Below the pieces are notes generated by a model, which worked only from the letters and a program-made list of their open reading frames with translations, ran no database searches and was not told where the DNA came from. Below are positions 22,541-32,765 of a stretch of DNA of 38,238 bases, in pieces; the first letter of the stretch is position 1; each line of letters starts with the position of its first letter. The translations under genes were made by a program, and so were the position numbers. Source of the stretch: Bacillota bacterium (GTDB lineage: Bacteria; Bacillota; Clostridia; Acetivibrionales; DUMC01); NCBI GenBank assembly GCA_013314855.1, contig JABUEW010000032.1, forward strand, positions 1 through 38,238, written 5' to 3'.

Positions 22541-22554
22541 AGGGGATGATTTAT

Positions 22555-22851
22555 TTGGCTACTAAATACGTATATCAGCCAGAGCAGTTAAACCGCCGAT
22601 ACGGTACAACACAGCAAAATAGAACACAGTATAACAATATACAGTATAACAATATACAGTATAACGAACTACAGGATAGTAGGACACAAGAAAGTACAAC
22701 TTTCCCCTCCCGGGAGACATCAATGTCCCTGCTATCCCAGGAAACAGCCGCGCCATCCCCGATAAAATTAAAACCGGAAAATATCCTTCAGGGAATAATT
22801 TTTTCCGAAATTTTAGGGAAACCCAAGTGTTTAAGGATTAGGAGGAGATAG
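22555..22851 (+). CDS. Small conserved-type protein with YNNIQ repeats, downstream of floA
   Basis: About 98 aa from a TTG at 22555, which AAAGGGGATG precedes at proper spacing; the in-frame ATG three codons upstream touches that site and is unlikely. Three parts are visible: a start MATKYVYQPEQLNRRYG, a Gln/Asn/Tyr-rich stretch made by a 15-bp tandem repeat (QYNNIQYNNIQYNELQ), and a hydrophobic/basic end NILQGIIFSEILGKPKCLR. No signal peptide or membrane helix. The C-terminal motif looks like a short conserved peptide, perhaps an interaction motif with the membrane scaffold encoded next door. Function unknown. Confidence 0.65.
   Translation: MATKYVYQPEQLNRRYGTTQQNRTQYNNIQYNNIQYNELQDSRTQESTTFPSRETSMSLLSQETAAPSPIKLKPENILQGIIFSEILGKPKCLRIRRR
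22626..22670 (+). repeat. 15-bp tandem repeat inside the small gene after floA
   Basis: Two identical copies of ACAGTATAACAATAT (22626-22640 and 22641-22655) and a third diverged copy (22656-22670). The unit length is a multiple of three and encodes Q-Y-N-N-I pentapeptides, so copy number could vary without breaking the frame. Confidence 0.85.
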
Positions 22852-22875
22852 TTGGATATTTCTACCTCTTATAAT

Positions 22876-22903
22876 ACCCGTCATTTTATATATAATGGCG
22901 GGT
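22876..22903 (+). terminator. Rho-independent terminator of the nfeD-floA operon
   Basis: ACCCGTCATT (22876-22885) pairs with AATGGCGGGT (22894-22903), ten pairs with one G-T wobble and an 8-nt loop, followed by AATTTTATTTATT on the plus strand. It lies between the convergent floA and V-ATPase operons. In the opposite direction the stem has one mismatch and no U tract. Confidence 0.8.
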
Positions 22904-22933
22904 AATTTTATTTATTATTATGATTATTATGTA

Positions 22934-24751
22934 TTATGTATCAATTATTAACTCTCCAGCTTCGAGCCCTTTTACAATTTCAGCCTCCAGATTGGTTTCA
23001 ATGCCAACCTCCACAAACCTTTGTTTTTTTATGCCATTTTCCAACACATATACGTATTTATTGCCCATGTAGTTTTGAAGTACCCTTTTTGGAACTACTA
23101 CAACATTATCTCTTTGCTCAAGTACAAGATTTATACGTATATTTCCTGTTCTCTTCGTTGCAGTCTCCATTGTAAGCCCTTTAATGTTTATTAATATCGT
23201 TTCTTTACTATTAGCCGGAGCATCTTTTGGAAGGTAAGCAGGAGATACTACAACCTCTCCCTCTAATTCTTCTTTTTCAAAAGATATTCCAACTTTCATG
23301 CCCACATCAAAGTACCGGACGTTAAAGCCCGAATACTTTATTTGAACATCTTCAAGTTTTACTATCGTAAGCATTGGGTAATAGGCGCCTACCCATTCTC
23401 CAAGCTCTAATTCGCTAACATTAAAAACCATTCCTTCTACAGGAGATATAATTTTTGCGCTTTCCAACTCCCTTTGAACTTGCTTTAACTGATATTCCGC
23501 ATTCTTTACATCCAAATCCGAGCTGATTTTCGTCGCTTCCAATTTATCTTTAAGCCCCTCTATTGCTATTTCCTGTCTTATTATCAAGCCTTTTATTCCT
23601 TCAATATCTTCTTCAAGAGACTTTAAGGTTGAACCTCCTTCAGCCAAAACTGATTCTTTCAACTGTTCTTTCTCTGAAAGGTCCCTTTTTAATTTTTCAA
23701 GTTGTAATTGGGCCAGTTCTATTTCCCTTTCAACCTGGGATATTGCTTGTTCACCACTTAATTTTGCTTTTTCAAGAGCTATTTCATACTGTCCAAGCTT
23801 TATTTCCAGGCTATCCGTTTCAAACTCGGCTAACAAGTCCCCTTCTTTAACAATATCACCCATCCCCACATAAAACCCTTTTAAGCGTCCCCCATATTTT
23901 GAGGATATAACTGTTCCGGAAGAAACTTCAATTGTTGCAGTATCTTTTATTTCTTTTTTAATACTCCCCTTCTGTACTTCCATAGTAGAATACTGTATTT
24001 GCTTGGGCTCTTCCAGGGGAGGTAAAAGCACCTCTTCTTTTTTGGCAAACAGGGAACACCCTGTAATCATAAAAGAAAATATTACAAGGGGAAGGACAAA
24101 TTTTACAGCTTTTCTTGCCTGCTCAAGCATCATATCCTTAACTTTCATAAGTCTTGTCAGATTCCCTCTTTCGTTTTCATCAAGTTTCATTTTAATATAT
24201 TTTATCGTATCGGTTAATTGAGGGATTAAAACATATTCAAGGGCATTTACCCTTCTTCTGGTCTTTTCAATCTCTTCCGCCAACAACTGTGTTGACTTTT
24301 CCACCTGCGCCAGTTCAAGTAAATACGGCACTACTTGAGATAGCGCTGTAATGGCACTATCCAATTCCCCTGATGTAGTTGCGAAGCCATAAGGGTAAAT
24401 ATCTCCCTTATTTTCACTTCCGGTCTTAAAATCAAAACTCGGCACGTCAACGCTCATAATATTTGTAGAAGCAACATCCAGTGAAACGGTTTGTTTAGGA
24501 AACATTAAGGCTTCTTCAAGTATTTCTGACGACATAACCGACCTTGCTATTAGAAAGCTGAAATGGACATTCATTATCATTTCTTCTACCTTTTCCCTGA
24601 GTTCCTTATTTTTTCTCACCAATTCAAGAAACTTCTTCATTAATTCATCTCTTTTATCCTTAAGAAGCTTATGTCCCCTCCGAGCTACCGCTAGCCTTTT
24701 CTTTAACCGCGTAAGTTCCATCCGTGTAGGGTTCACATTCATTATTGCCAT
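22934..24751 (-). CDS. atpD: V-type ATPase subunit D fused in frame to a lipoprotein membrane-fusion (HlyD/RND-type) protein
   Basis: One uninterrupted 605-aa reading frame. Residues 1 to about 214 are a complete central-stalk subunit D ([16 protein letters not shown] start; GYDLL-equivalent [14 protein letters not shown]-terminal [13 protein letters not shown] and [17 protein letters not shown]), the rotor axle of the V1 part. Residues 215-232 are a hydrophobic segment ending in the lipobox M-I-T-G-Cys232. From about 258 to 605 comes a periplasmic-adaptor-type protein: a lipoyl half ([22 protein letters not shown]), a long coiled coil (about 310-420), the second lipoyl half ([19 protein letters not shown]), and beta-barrel and membrane-proximal domains. 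ATG at 24751 has AAAGGGGAG upstream. Internal ATGs at 24133 and 24130 could start the adaptor separately as a normal lipoprotein; AAGG lies just before them. No ABC transporter partner follows. Confidence 0.85.
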
Positions 24752-24809
24752 AAAAGCACTCCCCTTTAACACCAGTTCATTTCGTAATACATATCAATGT
24801 TTAATTCCA

Positions 24810-24850
24810 ACCTCTCACTTCCCACTTCCTACCTCTCACTTCTCACCACT
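24810..24850. repeat. 21-bp imperfect tandem repeat across the 3' end of atpB
   Basis: ACCTCTCACTTC recurs at 24810 and 24831, and a partial copy (AACCTCT) begins near 24851, giving a period of about 21 bp. On the coding strand this is purine-rich GAAGTGAGAGGT. The atpB stop codon (24838-24836) falls inside a unit, so the last few residues of subunit B are repeat-encoded. Confidence 0.7.
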
Positions 24851-26221
24851 AACCTCTAAATAATACTCTTCAATATACTCGTCTCTGATACGTTTGAGCT
24901 CTCCTTTTGGTAAAATGGCAAGGAGCCTCCAACCTATATCCAGAGTTTTTTCTATAGGCCTGTCTTCGTCAAATCCCTGGGAAACATACTCCCTTTCAAA
25001 CTCATCTGCAAATTTGGCATAGAGTTTATCAACATCAGTTAACGCAGCTTCTCCAAGTATAATGGCAAGCTCCTTTGCTTCCTTCCCCCTGGCATAAGCT
25101 GCAAACAACTGGTTCATTGTATCTGCATGGTCCTCCCTGGTTTTCCCTTCTCCTATACCTTTATCTTTTAACCTTGATAGAGAGGGCAAAACATCAATAG
25201 GAGGCTCTATGCCCTTTCTATACAGCTCTCTGCTTAGTATTATCTGCCCTTCCGTTATATACCCCGTGAGGTCAGGTATCGGGTGAGTCTTATCATCTTC
25301 AGGCATAGAAAGAATCGGTATCAGAGTAATGCTACCCTTCTTATCCCTTTTTCTTCCTGCTCTCTCGTAAATAGTTGCCAAATCCGTATAAAGATATCCC
25401 GGGTATCCTCTCCTGCCGGGAACCTCTTTTCTGGCTGCAGATACTTCCCTTAAAGCTTCAGCATAGTTAGTCATGTCTGTTAATATAACCAATACATGCA
25501 TATCTTTTTCAAAGGCCAGATATTCAGCAGCCGTAAGGGCCATACGAGGAGTAGAAATTCTTTCTATTGCAGGGTCATTTGCAAGGTTTATAAACATTAC
25601 GGCTCGATCTATAGCACCTGTCCTTCTGAAATCGGATATAAAATAATCTGCTTCTTCAAAAGTTATGCCCATTGCTCCGAAGACAACGGCAAACCTGCTT
25701 TCAGTGCCCAGAACCTTTGCCTGCCTTGCAATTTGGGCAGCCAGTTGGGCATGAGGTAGGCCTGATCCGGAAAATATGGGCAACTTCTGACCTCTGACCA
25801 GGGTATTGAGGCCATCTATGGCAGATATCCCCGTCTGTATAAACTCAGAAGGATAATCCCTTGCAGCAGGGTTTATAGGTACACCATTTATATCAAGCCT
25901 CATATCGGGAATTATATTGGGTCCGCCATCTATAGGTTCACCCATTCCACTGAACACCCTGCCAAGCATATCAATTGACACGGGGAGCTCCAGCCCCCTT
26001 CCTAAAAACCTTACTTTACTTTCAGCAACATTTATTCCTGCCGAACTTTCAAACAACTGTACAAGAGCCCTGTCTTCATTTATTTCCAATACCCTGCATC
26101 TTCGGATTTCTCCATTTGACAGTTCAATTTCTCCCAATTCTCCGTATTTAACTCCTTCTACACTTCTTACAAGCATCAAAGGTCCTGCTACTTCAGATAT
26201 AGTCCTGTACTCTTTAAGCAT
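24836..26221 (-). CDS. atpB: V-type ATP synthase subunit B (non-catalytic)
   Basis: Regulatory nucleotide-site subunit of the A3B3 hexamer; 461 aa. It has the beta-barrel N-terminus, and the P-loop position is replaced by [12 protein letters not shown] (150-161), which marks B rather than [30 protein letters not shown]-like and [22 protein letters not shown] segments are typical. ATG at 26221 overlaps the atpA stop by 8 bp, with AAAGGAGGTG upstream. Its last codons lie in a purine-rich tandem repeat. Confidence 0.97.
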
Positions 26222-27992
26222 CTAATCCCACCTCCTTTGATACCAGCTCATTTATCTGCCTATCGAGTTCCATCTCTATCTCAAGAAATACAGTATCAAC
26301 TTCATGTTCCGGAGTATATTTTGCCCTTCCTATCCTCTCTCTTACAGGTATGGAAAAAAGTTCATCAATGCCGGCACCTTTCTTCAATGCTTTTTTACCT
26401 TTATAATAAAAAGCCATTATAAGTTTCAACATCCTGAACTGCTTGTTCAATGACGTATATGTATCAACGTCATGGAATGCATTTTGGTGTAAGTAGTCTT
26501 CACGGATAGAGCGTGCCGCTTCAAGTACAAGCCTTTCGTTTGGTGACAGTGCATCAATACCTACTAGGCGTACAATTTCCTCTAGCTCAGCCTCTTCCTG
26601 GAGCAGTCTCATCACGTCTGCCCTAAGCATACTCCAGTCTCTGGAAACGTTTTGTTCCATCCATTTATCAATTCTGTCAAGATATAAGGAATAACTGTTC
26701 AACCAATTTATTGCTGGAAAATGCCTTCTATAGGCAAGGTTTGCATCAAGCCCCCAAAAAACTTTAATAATTCTTAATGTAGCCTGGGTAACCGGTTCTG
26801 AAAGGTCACCACCAGGAGGTGATACAGCTCCGATAGCTGTAAGTGAGCCTTCTCTTCCGTTTGTACCAAGACTTATAACCCTTCCGGCCCTTTCATAAAA
26901 CTGTGCCAGCCTTGATCCAAGGTAGGCAGGATATCCTTCTTCCCCGGGCATTTCTTCAAGGCGACCGGACATTTCCCTTAAAGCTTCAGCCCAACGAGAA
27001 GTAGAGTCTGCCATTAAAGCCACGCTATACCCCATATCCCTAAAATATTCAGCAATAGTAATGCCTGTGTAAATAGAGGCTTCTCTAGCTGCAACAGGCA
27101 TATCGGAAGTATTTGCAATAAGCACGGTACGTTTCATTAAAGACTCACCGGTCCTTGGGTCTTTTAGTTGAGGGAACTCGAGCAAAACATCAGTCATTTC
27201 ATTGCCGCGTTCTCCACATCCTATATAAACCACTATTTCAGCATCAGCCCATTTAGCCAATTGATGCTGTACCACTGTTTTCCCGCTTCCAAAAGGTCCA
27301 GGTACGGCAGCAACTCCTCCTTTTGCCAGTGGAAACAGTGTATCTATAACCCTCTGACCTGTAATTAAAGGAGTTTCAGGAGGCAGTTTTTCTCTATATG
27401 GCCTCCCTTTACGCACAGGCCATTTCTGAAGCATTGTGAGCTCAACCACATCTCCATTATCCCTCCTTATTTTTGCAACAGGCTGTTCTACTGTAAATTC
27501 ACCTTCATATATTTCTTCAATTACACCTTTAATACCGTAAGGAACCATGATCCTATGTTCAACTATAATAGTTTCTTGTACTTTGCCGATTATATCCCCC
27601 GGATTAACTCTAAGGCCCTTTTCTGCGGTTGGTTCAAAGCGCCATTTTGCTTTCCTGTCAATAGCATTTACTTCTATACCCCTTGTAATATTACTCCCAA
27701 CCATTTCTCTGATTATTTCAAGTGGCCTTTGTATTCCATCATATATTTTCCCTATTAATCCAGGACCTAATTCGACACTCAAAGGTGATCCCATCGATTC
27801 TACAGGTTCTCCTGGACCTAAGCCTGCAGTCTCTTCATAAACTTGTATTGAAGCTTTATCATCATGCATTTCTATAATTTCACCTATTAAACGGTGCTCA
27901 CTTACACGAACCACATCAAACAGGTTAGCATTTCTCATTCCTTCAGCTATTACTAAAGGGCCTGACACTTTTACAATTCTTCCCTTGTCCAT
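26214..27992 (-). CDS. atpA: V-type ATP synthase subunit A (catalytic)
   Basis: Catalytic ATPase subunit of V1; 592 aa, full length. The N-terminal beta-barrel is followed by the non-homologous bulge region (about 115-190) and the P-loop GPFGSGKT at 232-239. Further motifs are [15 protein letters not shown], the [30 protein letters not shown] segment (Walker B aspartate and neighbours) and [18 protein letters not shown]. The ATG at 27992 has AAGGAAGTG upstream. It lies between atpF and atpB. Whether the enzyme makes or hydrolyses ATP in vivo cannot be told from sequence. Confidence 0.98.
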
Positions 27993-28009
27993 AGTTAAAT
28001 CACTTCCTT

Positions 28010-28327
28010 TTACTCTGTAAACAATATATTTGCACCTACAGCTTTTTCAACTGATTTTTTTATACCCTGAATACCTATTCCCAAAGAACCTTGATTACCT
28101 GGTATAGGTATAATAGCAGGAATTTTTCTATTTTTATACACATCAATCACAGGCAGTATTTTTGCTGCGATTTGTTCGGTTATATAGATTACGGCATAAT
28201 CCTCCCTTGCTAAAGCATGCAAAATCTTTTCAGCCTCTTCTGAAGAAGCTGCTTGAAACACTGAAAAGCCCATAGCCTTAAATCCAAGAATACTATCCTT
28301 ATCTCCTATCACACCAATTTTATACAT
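28010..28327 (-). CDS. atpF: V-type ATP synthase subunit F (central stalk; Enterococcus NtpG)
   Basis: Small Rossmann-like subunit that binds subunit D in the rotor stalk; 105 aa. The pattern [21 protein letters not shown] at the start and the central [11 protein letters not shown] are typical of the family. The start overlaps the end of atpC by 8 bp, with GGGAG upstream. 17 bp separate it from atpA. Confidence 0.93.
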
Positions 28328-29327
28328 AAGTCTCCCTTAGCCTCTCCCTTATAATATCGGCGGAAATGTTATTAATCTTTCCCACCATTACAATCCTTAC
28401 ATTTTTTAATTCATTTTCCTTTGCTAAAAGATAACCTATCAAGGGTTCTATTCCGAATGTCTTATACTTAACTTTTTTAGCAAAGGCTATCAGGTAATCA
28501 TCAGCCAATTTTTCAAATACAGCAATGCTTCCTGTATTGATAAAACTATCAATCCCTTTTTTGCAAATATTTTCATATGCACTCCCTTTCATAGTATCTA
28601 CAAAGCCCTCCAAAGGTAAATCCATGTTTCTAATGAATATGTTGTTATCAATTTTTCCTCCCGGCATTAAGTTTTTCTGCAAAAATCCAACCGGCATATT
28701 TAACTTTTTAAGTCTTAAAAAAGTTTTAATATTTGTCAAGTCAACAGTTATTTTTAGAAGTTCTTTTATAAAACTTATTTCCAAATTATTTGCCAATTCA
28801 ACCACATGCTTAAAATATGCCCTGTCCAATATCAAATCAATTTGTTGAGGGTCATGGGTCCTGTTAAATGTATCTATACACTCTTCTATAGCCTCTTTCA
28901 TGTAAAAGGACAATTGTTCAAAATCCCTTTCCCTTATCATCATTTTCAAATTTGTAGCCGGTATGCTCACCGATTCCAGCAGGTTGGTATTATCTTCAAT
29001 ACCCAAAAACTCTGATTTTAATATAACCTTGATATTATGATAATCATTATTTAACAGAAATATATCAAATACTTTAGATTCATCAGTAAGTTCTCTTAAT
29101 AGCCTATAAAGCTTTTTTTGCTCTTCTCTGAGCAATTTTTCATATTCATAAGCTTTACCTGTTATATCGGTAGCAGATTCGTCATATCCGGCTTCAACCA
29201 GTATTTTTAAAGCTTCGCCGGGAGTTTTTGAATCTATCATCCGGTCAAACTTTCCCTTATCCAGCAATCTCTTTTCAATTACTCTAATTCTTCCTATACC
29301 GTAAGCAAATTGAGTTTCAACAGGCAA
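28320..29327 (-). CDS. atpC: V-type ATP synthase subunit C (rotor cap, d-type)
   Basis: Socket protein that couples the V1 central stalk to the membrane rotor ring; about 335 aa, mostly alpha-helical. N-terminal FAYGIGRIRVIEKRLLD and the DYHNIKVILKSEF and RAYFKHVVELA-like helices fit the AC39/subunit C family. A TTG at 29327 is preferred since GGAGG lies 8 nt before it; an ATG five codons upstream has no ribosome binding site. It follows atpE closely and overlaps atpF. Confidence 0.92.
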   Translation of the reverse strand: MPVETQFAYGIGRIRVIEKRLLDKGKFDRMIDSKTPGEALKILVEAGYDESATDITGKAYEYEKLLREEQKKLYRLLRELTDESKVFDIFLLNNDYHNIKVILKSEFLGIEDNTNLLESVSIPATNLKMMIRERDFEQLSFYMKEAIEECIDTFNRTHDPQQIDLILDRAYFKHVVELANNLEISFIKELLKITVDLTNIKTFLRLKKLNMPVGFLQKNLMPGGKIDNNIFIRNMDLPLEGFVDTMKGSAYENICKKGIDSFINTGSIAVFEKLADDYLIAFAKKVKYKTFGIEPLIGYLLAKENELKNVRIVMVGKINNISADIIRERLRETYV

Positions 29328-29366
29328 ATGTTTTACCTCCATTTCATTTATTACAGGAATGCTCTT

Positions 29367-29978
29367 CTATTCAAAGAGCATTTTTACTATTTCTGATTCA
29401 ATCTCATTGTATCTCATTCTCATAATAGCTTCAAAGGAATTGTTCATCTCTATATTTCCGGATCTTAAAATAAAACCTCCGTTAATATTTGCCGTCTCCT
29501 CTGAAAGCTTTACATTACCGTTAATATTCTTTTCTTTAAGTTTTTTATTAATTATACCTATAAAACCATCACCCAGCCTGGACTTATCTCTTTCTGACAG
29601 AATTATTTCCTCATCACCTTTTTTCACTGAATTCAAAACCATATCGGTAATTATCTCCATGTAGCGTTCAGGAGGTAATGAATTTAAAGTTTTTATGGCC
29701 TGTTCAAATACCGAGGCTATAATTTCCTGCTTTGCCTTAAGTTTTATTTTCCTTGCCTCAAGCTCTGCAACGGCAATTAACCTTTTCTTTCGCTCTTCAG
29801 CTTCTTTTTTTGCATTTTCAATAATTATATTTTTCTTTTTTTCCGCTTCATTCTTAGCTGAGTTTATAATATCAGCCGCCTGTTTCTCTGCCTGTTCAAT
29901 ATTATTTTGGGCCTGGAGGCGGGCATCCTCTAAAATTTTATTTACAATTCTTTCTGCTCCTTCCATCCGGAACAACAC
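29367..29978 (-). CDS. atpE: V-type ATP synthase subunit E (peripheral stalk)
   Basis: Stator subunit that pairs with the H/G-type subunit to form the peripheral stalk; up to 203 aa. Residues about 10-90 are a long Glu/Lys/Ala-rich helix (AEKQAADIINSAKNEAEKKKN), and the C-terminal domain ends with GGFILRSGNIEMNNSFEAIM, a family signature. The start is uncertain: GTG at 29978, the TTG next to it (AAGG 5 nt upstream) or the ATG at 29966 are possible; the first gives the length stated. Confidence 0.92.
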   Translation of the reverse strand: MLFRMEGAERIVNKILEDARLQAQNNIEQAEKQAADIINSAKNEAEKKKNIIIENAKKEAEERKKRLIAVAELEARKIKLKAKQEIIASVFEQAIKTLNSLPPERYMEIITDMVLNSVKKGDEEIILSERDKSRLGDGFIGIINKKLKEKNINGNVKLSEETANINGGFILRSGNIEMNNSFEAIMRMRYNEIESEIVKMLFE

Positions 29979-29991
29979 ATCCTTCTATTAT

Positions 29992-32429
<2,438 letters not shown>

Positions 32430-32452
<23 letters not shown>

Positions 32453-32765
32453 GGATTTTCACTACCCTTTCGATGACCAAGTCAACAACCCTACTGATTT
32501 TTGGTTCAACTTCTTTCTTAATAAATTGCCCCTCTTCTTCAGCTCTTACATATATTTCCTGTATCTCTCTTTGAGCATCCCCTTCTTTATTTTTAATAAT
32601 TTCGTGAGCTTCCTTTTCTCCTTTTTCCAATGCATTTTCAAGAATTATTTGTTTTTGCTTTTCTGCATTTGATATAATATCCCGCGCACGGGAAACAGAA
32701 TCTTCAATAATTTTTTCCGCGTCTTGCTCCGCTTTCTTTACAGCCTTTATTATATCAAGAGTCAT
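32430..32765 (-). CDS. atpH: V-type ATP synthase subunit H (peripheral stalk partner of E)
   Basis: 111-aa, almost wholly alpha-helical and highly charged (AEQDAEKIIEDSVSRARDIISNAE); a coiled-coil stator subunit equivalent to Thermus subunit G and Enterococcus NtpF. It is the first gene of the V-ATPase operon; AGGTGG precedes the ATG at 32765. Sequence alone is low-complexity, so the call depends on position upstream of atpI and on length. Confidence 0.88.

Follow-up and report, generated by a model that had tools for sequence, protein, structure and literature searches.

How can the rotor axle of a V/A-ATPase and an exported lipoprotein come to be encoded as one protein, when the two could hardly function as a single chain? 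The question is raised by the 38,238-nucleotide stretch of DNA analysed here (the window). The original prediction had described in it an in-frame fusion of a whole subunit D with a lipoprotein membrane-fusion protein (MFP), with no stop at the join, and the frame, the profile matches and the congener all agree with that description. On the minus strand, 22934-24751 translates into 605 residues with 0 internal stops. A complete D is joined in frame to a complete lipoprotein MFP, and the fusion is confirmed as real. The features of the locus are as follows.

24836-32765, minus strand: remaining V/A-ATPase operon, namely the gene at 32430-32765 followed by I, K, E, C, F, A and B (Pfam matches for 7 of the 8)
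24759-24767, minus strand: Shine-Dalgarno sequence AAAGGGGAG of the fusion gene (duplex -8.2 kcal/mol; -7.8 in the congener)
22934-24751, minus strand: single open frame of 605 codons, comprising subunit D, lipoprotein signal and MFP (translation; recurs in the congener)
24110-24751, minus strand: subunit D part, residues 1-214, with its natural end at about 210-214 (Pfam, NCBIfam and structure matches)
24101-24133, minus strand: join, residues 207-217, with Met207/208 lying within the conserved KDMM end of D (codon comparison)
24059-24118, minus strand: internal lipoprotein signal, residues 212-231, consisting of an ARKAVK n-region and a hydrophobic stretch (motif, hydropathy)
24056-24058, minus strand: lipobox Cys232 (ITGC), with predicted lipidation and signal peptidase II cut (motif)
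22937-24058, minus strand: mature MacA-like adaptor, residues 232-605 (TIGR01730, MacA 5nik_D, pN/pS 0.32)
22875-22904, no strand assigned: hairpin resembling a terminator, separating the fusion gene from the convergent floA side (matched by consensus; plus-strand listing)

Subunit D is encoded behind B, with I, K, E, C, F and A further upstream; the first gene of the operon, at 32430-32765, gave no Pfam match. The ribosome-binding site in front of the D start at 24751 is strong. The spacer between B and the fusion gene is purine-rich and repeat-like at 24805-24850 on the minus strand (GTGAGAAGTGAGAGG...).

The N-terminal part is a full subunit D by profile as well as by fold. PF01813 (ATP-synt_D) matched residues 12-206 over profile positions 1-196 of 196 with 217 bits (cut-off 25.7), and NF001543 (V-type subunit D, NCBIfam) matched residues 1-211 with 344 bits against a cut-off of 290; the corresponding scores of the fused D of the congener were 204 and 315 bits. 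The structure of the fusion was predicted from 59 sequences (39 D-only, 18 MFP-only and the 2 fusions, some of the MFP starts being poorly aligned), with a mean pLDDT of 82.9 and a pTM of 0.42. The model consists of two confident modules, with residues 220-255 below a pLDDT of 50 and the adaptor running from 256 to the end. Its D module contains the long antiparallel coiled coil (helices 8-72 and 128-222) with a beta-hairpin head (strands 89-110) that is expected of subunit D. NtpD of E. hirae (3aon_A) aligned with residues 4-210 of the fused D (186 aligned, Z 16.1, rmsd 2.0). In 5knc_G, the E. hirae D in V1, residues 6-206 aligned with 7-207, and other V1 D chains aligned up to residues 208-225; the hydrophobic segment of the fusion starts at 218. 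The fused protein thus shares with the V/A-ATPase subunit D (NtpD/AtpD, PF01813) the full domain, the fold, the position behind B and the C-terminal KDMM, but differs in what follows. The C-terminus of D-type proteins is usually free soon after KDMM. We compared 114 distinct D sequences from the loci examined, counting the fused ones and a second V-type. In 112 of them the chain stops 4-28 residues past the equivalent of residue 208, whereas both fusions continue for 397 residues. We therefore filed the protein as a D-containing fusion and not as a plain D.

The C-terminal part has the lipoyl, alpha-hairpin and beta-barrel fold of membrane-fusion proteins. RND_mfp (TIGR01730) scored 98.6 in the window, 106.0 in G002, a third genome of the family, and 84.8, which is below the cut-off of 94.9, in the congener. 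The Pfam adaptor families HlyD_3 and Biotin_lipoyl_2 were below cut-off in the window, and no Pfam adaptor family matched the fusion of the congener at E 0.001. MacA (5nik_D) aligned with residues 251-605 at Z 17.2 over 317 residues, with an rmsd of 11.3, large enough that the domains may be placed differently. On the basis of motif and hydropathy, a charged n-region, a hydrophobic core and a lipobox are all present, the signal being situated at residues 212-231 and not at the N-terminus of the chain. The natural end of D, ARKA, is retained in the window, and the hydrophobic core and lipobox of the signal follow it directly. Mean hydropathy of the signal was 2.27 in the window, 2.21 in the congener and 2.24 in G002, with ITGC, ISGC and LTSC, respectively, as lipobox. 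The adaptor is 39-42% identical to the MacA-like adaptors of an FtsX-type ABC exporter encoded elsewhere in the family (paralogs C175, C308 and C161); these are lipoproteins too, and its adaptor fold resembles MacA. The paralogs differ from it in that each carries a signal of its own and in that those on C175 and C161 are accompanied by an FtsX permease and two ATPases, whereas no partner transporter gene adjoins the fused copy, the neighbours of which are V-ATPase genes and floA/nfeD.

The genus is represented by two genomes, that of the window (G000) and the congener G001 (JAAZDH010000354.1, a Clostridiaceae metagenome assembly), and the family by three, including G002 (DUMC01000107.1). G001 carries the same fusion, again of 605 codons, gap-free and stop-free, at 67% identity over 605 residues, so that the fusion was found in 2/2 genomes examined of the genus. 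The axle and the lipoprotein have thus been joined since before this divergence. Separate genes in close relatives, named with the original prediction as counter-evidence, were seen only outside the genus, in G002. There D ends in KSRS followed by a stop, and 33 bases beyond this stop a separate, adjacent lipoprotein MFP frame of 432 codons begins; an ATG further down, 84 bases from the stop, carries the better ribosome-binding site. An apparent open frame of 671 aa spanning D and MFP in G002 was rejected, as the genes are separated by two in-frame TAA stops and the D frame is 227.

Looked for in wider relatives, as suggested with the original prediction, the fusion was present in the congener and nowhere further among the matches listed. 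These covered 58 genomes of the order (G000 and G001 alone), 391 drawn from the class and 398 drawn from the phylum. No other D among the matches listed from the class had an open frame above 266 aa. Those from the phylum included three such frames, in G629 (415), G717 (315) and G763 (280); in the two that were examined, G629 and G717, D has a normal end and the extra frame length lies upstream. Among D genes with at least 1200 bases downstream, an MFP match was present in the locus of 1/97, that of G002. We found no report of such a fusion in the open-access literature, most subscription papers lying outside its scope, and no papers on internal lipoprotein signals in the open-access literature. 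The parts themselves are known; the join of D to an MFP and its demands on the maturation of D are new to us.

We infer, with a probability of roughly 0.6, that the two proteins are made as one precursor and then cut apart. A cut by signal peptidase II before Cys232 had been put forward in the original prediction and remains the best reading. According to this proposal D would be made first and stay cytoplasmic, while the hydrophobic segment after residue 217 would serve as an internal signal-anchor, N-in and C-out. Sec would export the MFP, which would receive its lipid at Cys232 and be cut free by signal peptidase II (LspA). A short membrane stub would remain on D, and stubs of this kind are cut by RseP/Eep-type site-2 proteases; alternatively, a cytosolic protease might trim D near residues 208-218. 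The freed D would then join F and A3B3, and a chain left uncut would have no place in the working rotor.

The precursor is favoured because the intact chain can hardly be in the ring and in the membrane at once. The C-terminus of D points to the membrane-distal crown of A3B3. The N- and C-helices of D are enclosed by A3B3 (PMC6371843), and D helices contact A and B in the T. thermophilus structures (PMC8904598). LspA was found in 3/3 genomes of the family and M50 proteases likewise in 3/3; their presence does not discriminate, since both are widespread in the control genomes (10/14 and 14/14, respectively). The usual substrate of signal peptidase II has a short N-terminal signal. A cytoplasmic part of 211 residues ahead of the signal is unusual, which counts against the precursor.

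Two known systems come near to what we propose. In S. aureus, the action of Lgt, LspA and then Eep on a lipoprotein signal has been modelled from mutants (PMC7157817), and in other systems membrane-held domains are released by site-2 proteases (PMC10202637). By analogy, D may undergo LspA-then-Eep/RseP processing as well. The proposed order of the two cuts would be that of peptide pheromones (PMC7157817, PMC10202637), but the N-terminal product there is a short peptide, whereas here it would be a motor subunit of ~24 kDa. The second system is FbcH, a polyprotein of cytochrome b and cytochrome c1 that is cleaved by signal peptidase I and both parts of which belong to one complex. As in FbcH, two normally separate proteins would share one precursor with an internal signal, and proteins encoded in one frame here are encoded apart in a relative, G002. 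The fusion differs from FbcH in combining a cytoplasmic rotor with an unrelated lipoprotein and in having a signal of the signal peptidase II type. If it is cut, it would be a natural case of a cytoplasmic motor subunit freed through lipoprotein signal processing; if it is not, it conflicts with the known geometry of the rotor. More tentatively, the supply of rotors might be gated by regulated intramembrane proteolysis with LspA at site 1 and RseP/Eep at site 2, a possibility that we hold doubtful. Were it true, each axle would be released only after export of a surface adaptor, and assembly of the motor would be tied one-to-one to lipoprotein traffic.

Two products could instead arise by translation, with an extra start at Met207/208 yielding a prolipoprotein and the full chain serving as D, which we consider unlikely. 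Codons 207/208 correspond to ATG 24133/24130, the pair named in the original prediction as a possible independent start. A start there would give a plausible n-region, and the Shine-Dalgarno duplex in the window is -5.9 kcal/mol, a strength that only 5% of the 97 loci carrying the motif attain (a set with redundancy between collections that includes two loci of G001 itself; range -5.9 to -0.9). However, the pair is the conserved KDMM end of D and is present in unfused D genes too. The duplex in the window is no evidence for an internal start, since it is near the background (median -5.6) and weak in the congener (-1.5/-0.9); little speaks in favour of the suggestion. An internal start would also leave a free D unexplained, as no stop ends D. 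A programmed frameshift that would free D was considered from the codon list, read by eye, and set aside.

Another way to do without cleavage is for the intact fusion to work as a rotor-lipoprotein tether, for example by keeping V1 or D membrane-bound in a state that is regulated or paused in assembly. The fusion is common to both genomes of the genus, and its cleavage is a step that we infer, both of which speak for a tether. Its geometry makes it rather improbable: the C-helix of D lies within A3B3 (PMC6371843), and at most about ten residues separate the ordered end of D from the hydrophobic segment at 218-231. Moreover, the assembly of G001 contains no other D.

PF01813 matched twice in G000 (the fusion and a D on contig C46), once in G001 (the fusion) and once in G002. 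No match to the F-type gamma (PF00231) was obtained in G000-G002, while 9/14 control genomes were positive. Since the fused D is the sole D found in G001 and none of the three genomes has an F-type gamma match, it probably still works and is needed. The G001 assembly is 89% complete, so the missing second D is not proof. C46 of G000 (L146 1-16000) carries a second V-type ATPase set in which C, I, A, B and D were recognised, its D being 24-26% identical to the fused D.

Comparison of the window with G001 indicated how the halves have evolved. In the C-helix of D, residues 162-206, there was 1 non-synonymous against 18 synonymous differences (pN 0.009, pS 0.607), and codons 212-218 differed only synonymously. 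The signal core, residues 219-231, had a pN of 0.38, yet its hydrophobicity was kept (2.27 and 2.21), and the mature MFP had a pN/pS of 0.32, with synonymous sites near saturation. Both halves are thereby shown to be under purifying selection. Branch shares were taken from a tree built on A, B, C and E, with the window and ten loci of our choosing as its members; one node had a support of 49. On the window branch, the share of tree length was 0.030 for D, similar to A, B, C and E (0.031-0.034) and above F (0.013). On the branch of G001, it was 0.159 for D, compared with 0.137 for F and 0.085-0.100 for the other four. The faster D in G001 may reflect relaxation or adaptation there, and its long branch counts partly against an undisturbed function of D in G001. 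In this congener (locus L039), F and D are both fast, which gives the impression that the D-F part of the rotor is adapting as a unit.

These values bear on the idea that the fused D is decaying or dispensable, the other V-type ATPase doing the work and the frame mattering for the MFP only. The second V-type D on C46 and the long D branch of G001 are in line with it. We regard it as very improbable, given the scarcity of non-synonymous change in the C-helix, the ordinary D branch of the window, an operon with seven other recognised subunits and no second D found in G001. Finally, an assembly or sequencing error that deleted a stop codon, raised in the original prediction and conceivable in draft assemblies of 252 and ~380 contigs, is excluded for practical purposes because a second assembly, differing by 33% in protein, carries the same fusion with a gap-free join.

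As to how the precursor gene arose, a recent loss of the D stop had also been suggested. The loss fits the data, but it is not recent, because the fusion is common to two species whose copies are 67% identical. D faces a convergent floA-nfeD in the window, G001 and G002. The same arrangement occurs in L044 and L050, there without an MFP match between D and floA-nfeD. In a tree of 17 MFPs (drawn midpoint-rooted, the G002 row including nine signal residues), those behind or joined to D formed one clade and the ABC exporter MFPs of the family a second, each with a support of 100; these six family MFPs split from the other eleven with a support of 95. The exporter layout on C175 and C161 is MFP, FtsX permease and two ATPases. 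From the clades and this layout, it is probable that the exporter adaptor was duplicated and that one copy came to lie behind D in the ancestor of the family. The genus then probably lost the stop codon of D together with the spacer and the original n-region of the MFP. We read the fusion as the derived state; with three genomes of the family examined, an older fusion may alternatively have been split again in G002.

The exporter clusters lie at L143 25-5816 (C175 of G000) and L145 5422-11367 (C161 of G002). Their FtsX permeases are 952-960 aa long, the one of 960 aa being without an NCBIfam match at E 1e-6, and the second ABC ATPase of L143 has a weak MazE/AbrB-like C-terminal match, below cut-off. 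A small ORF of 101 codons (22546-22851, plus strand) follows floA in the window; its last 29 residues match G002 at 55%, and its residues 4-101 match G001 at 29%.
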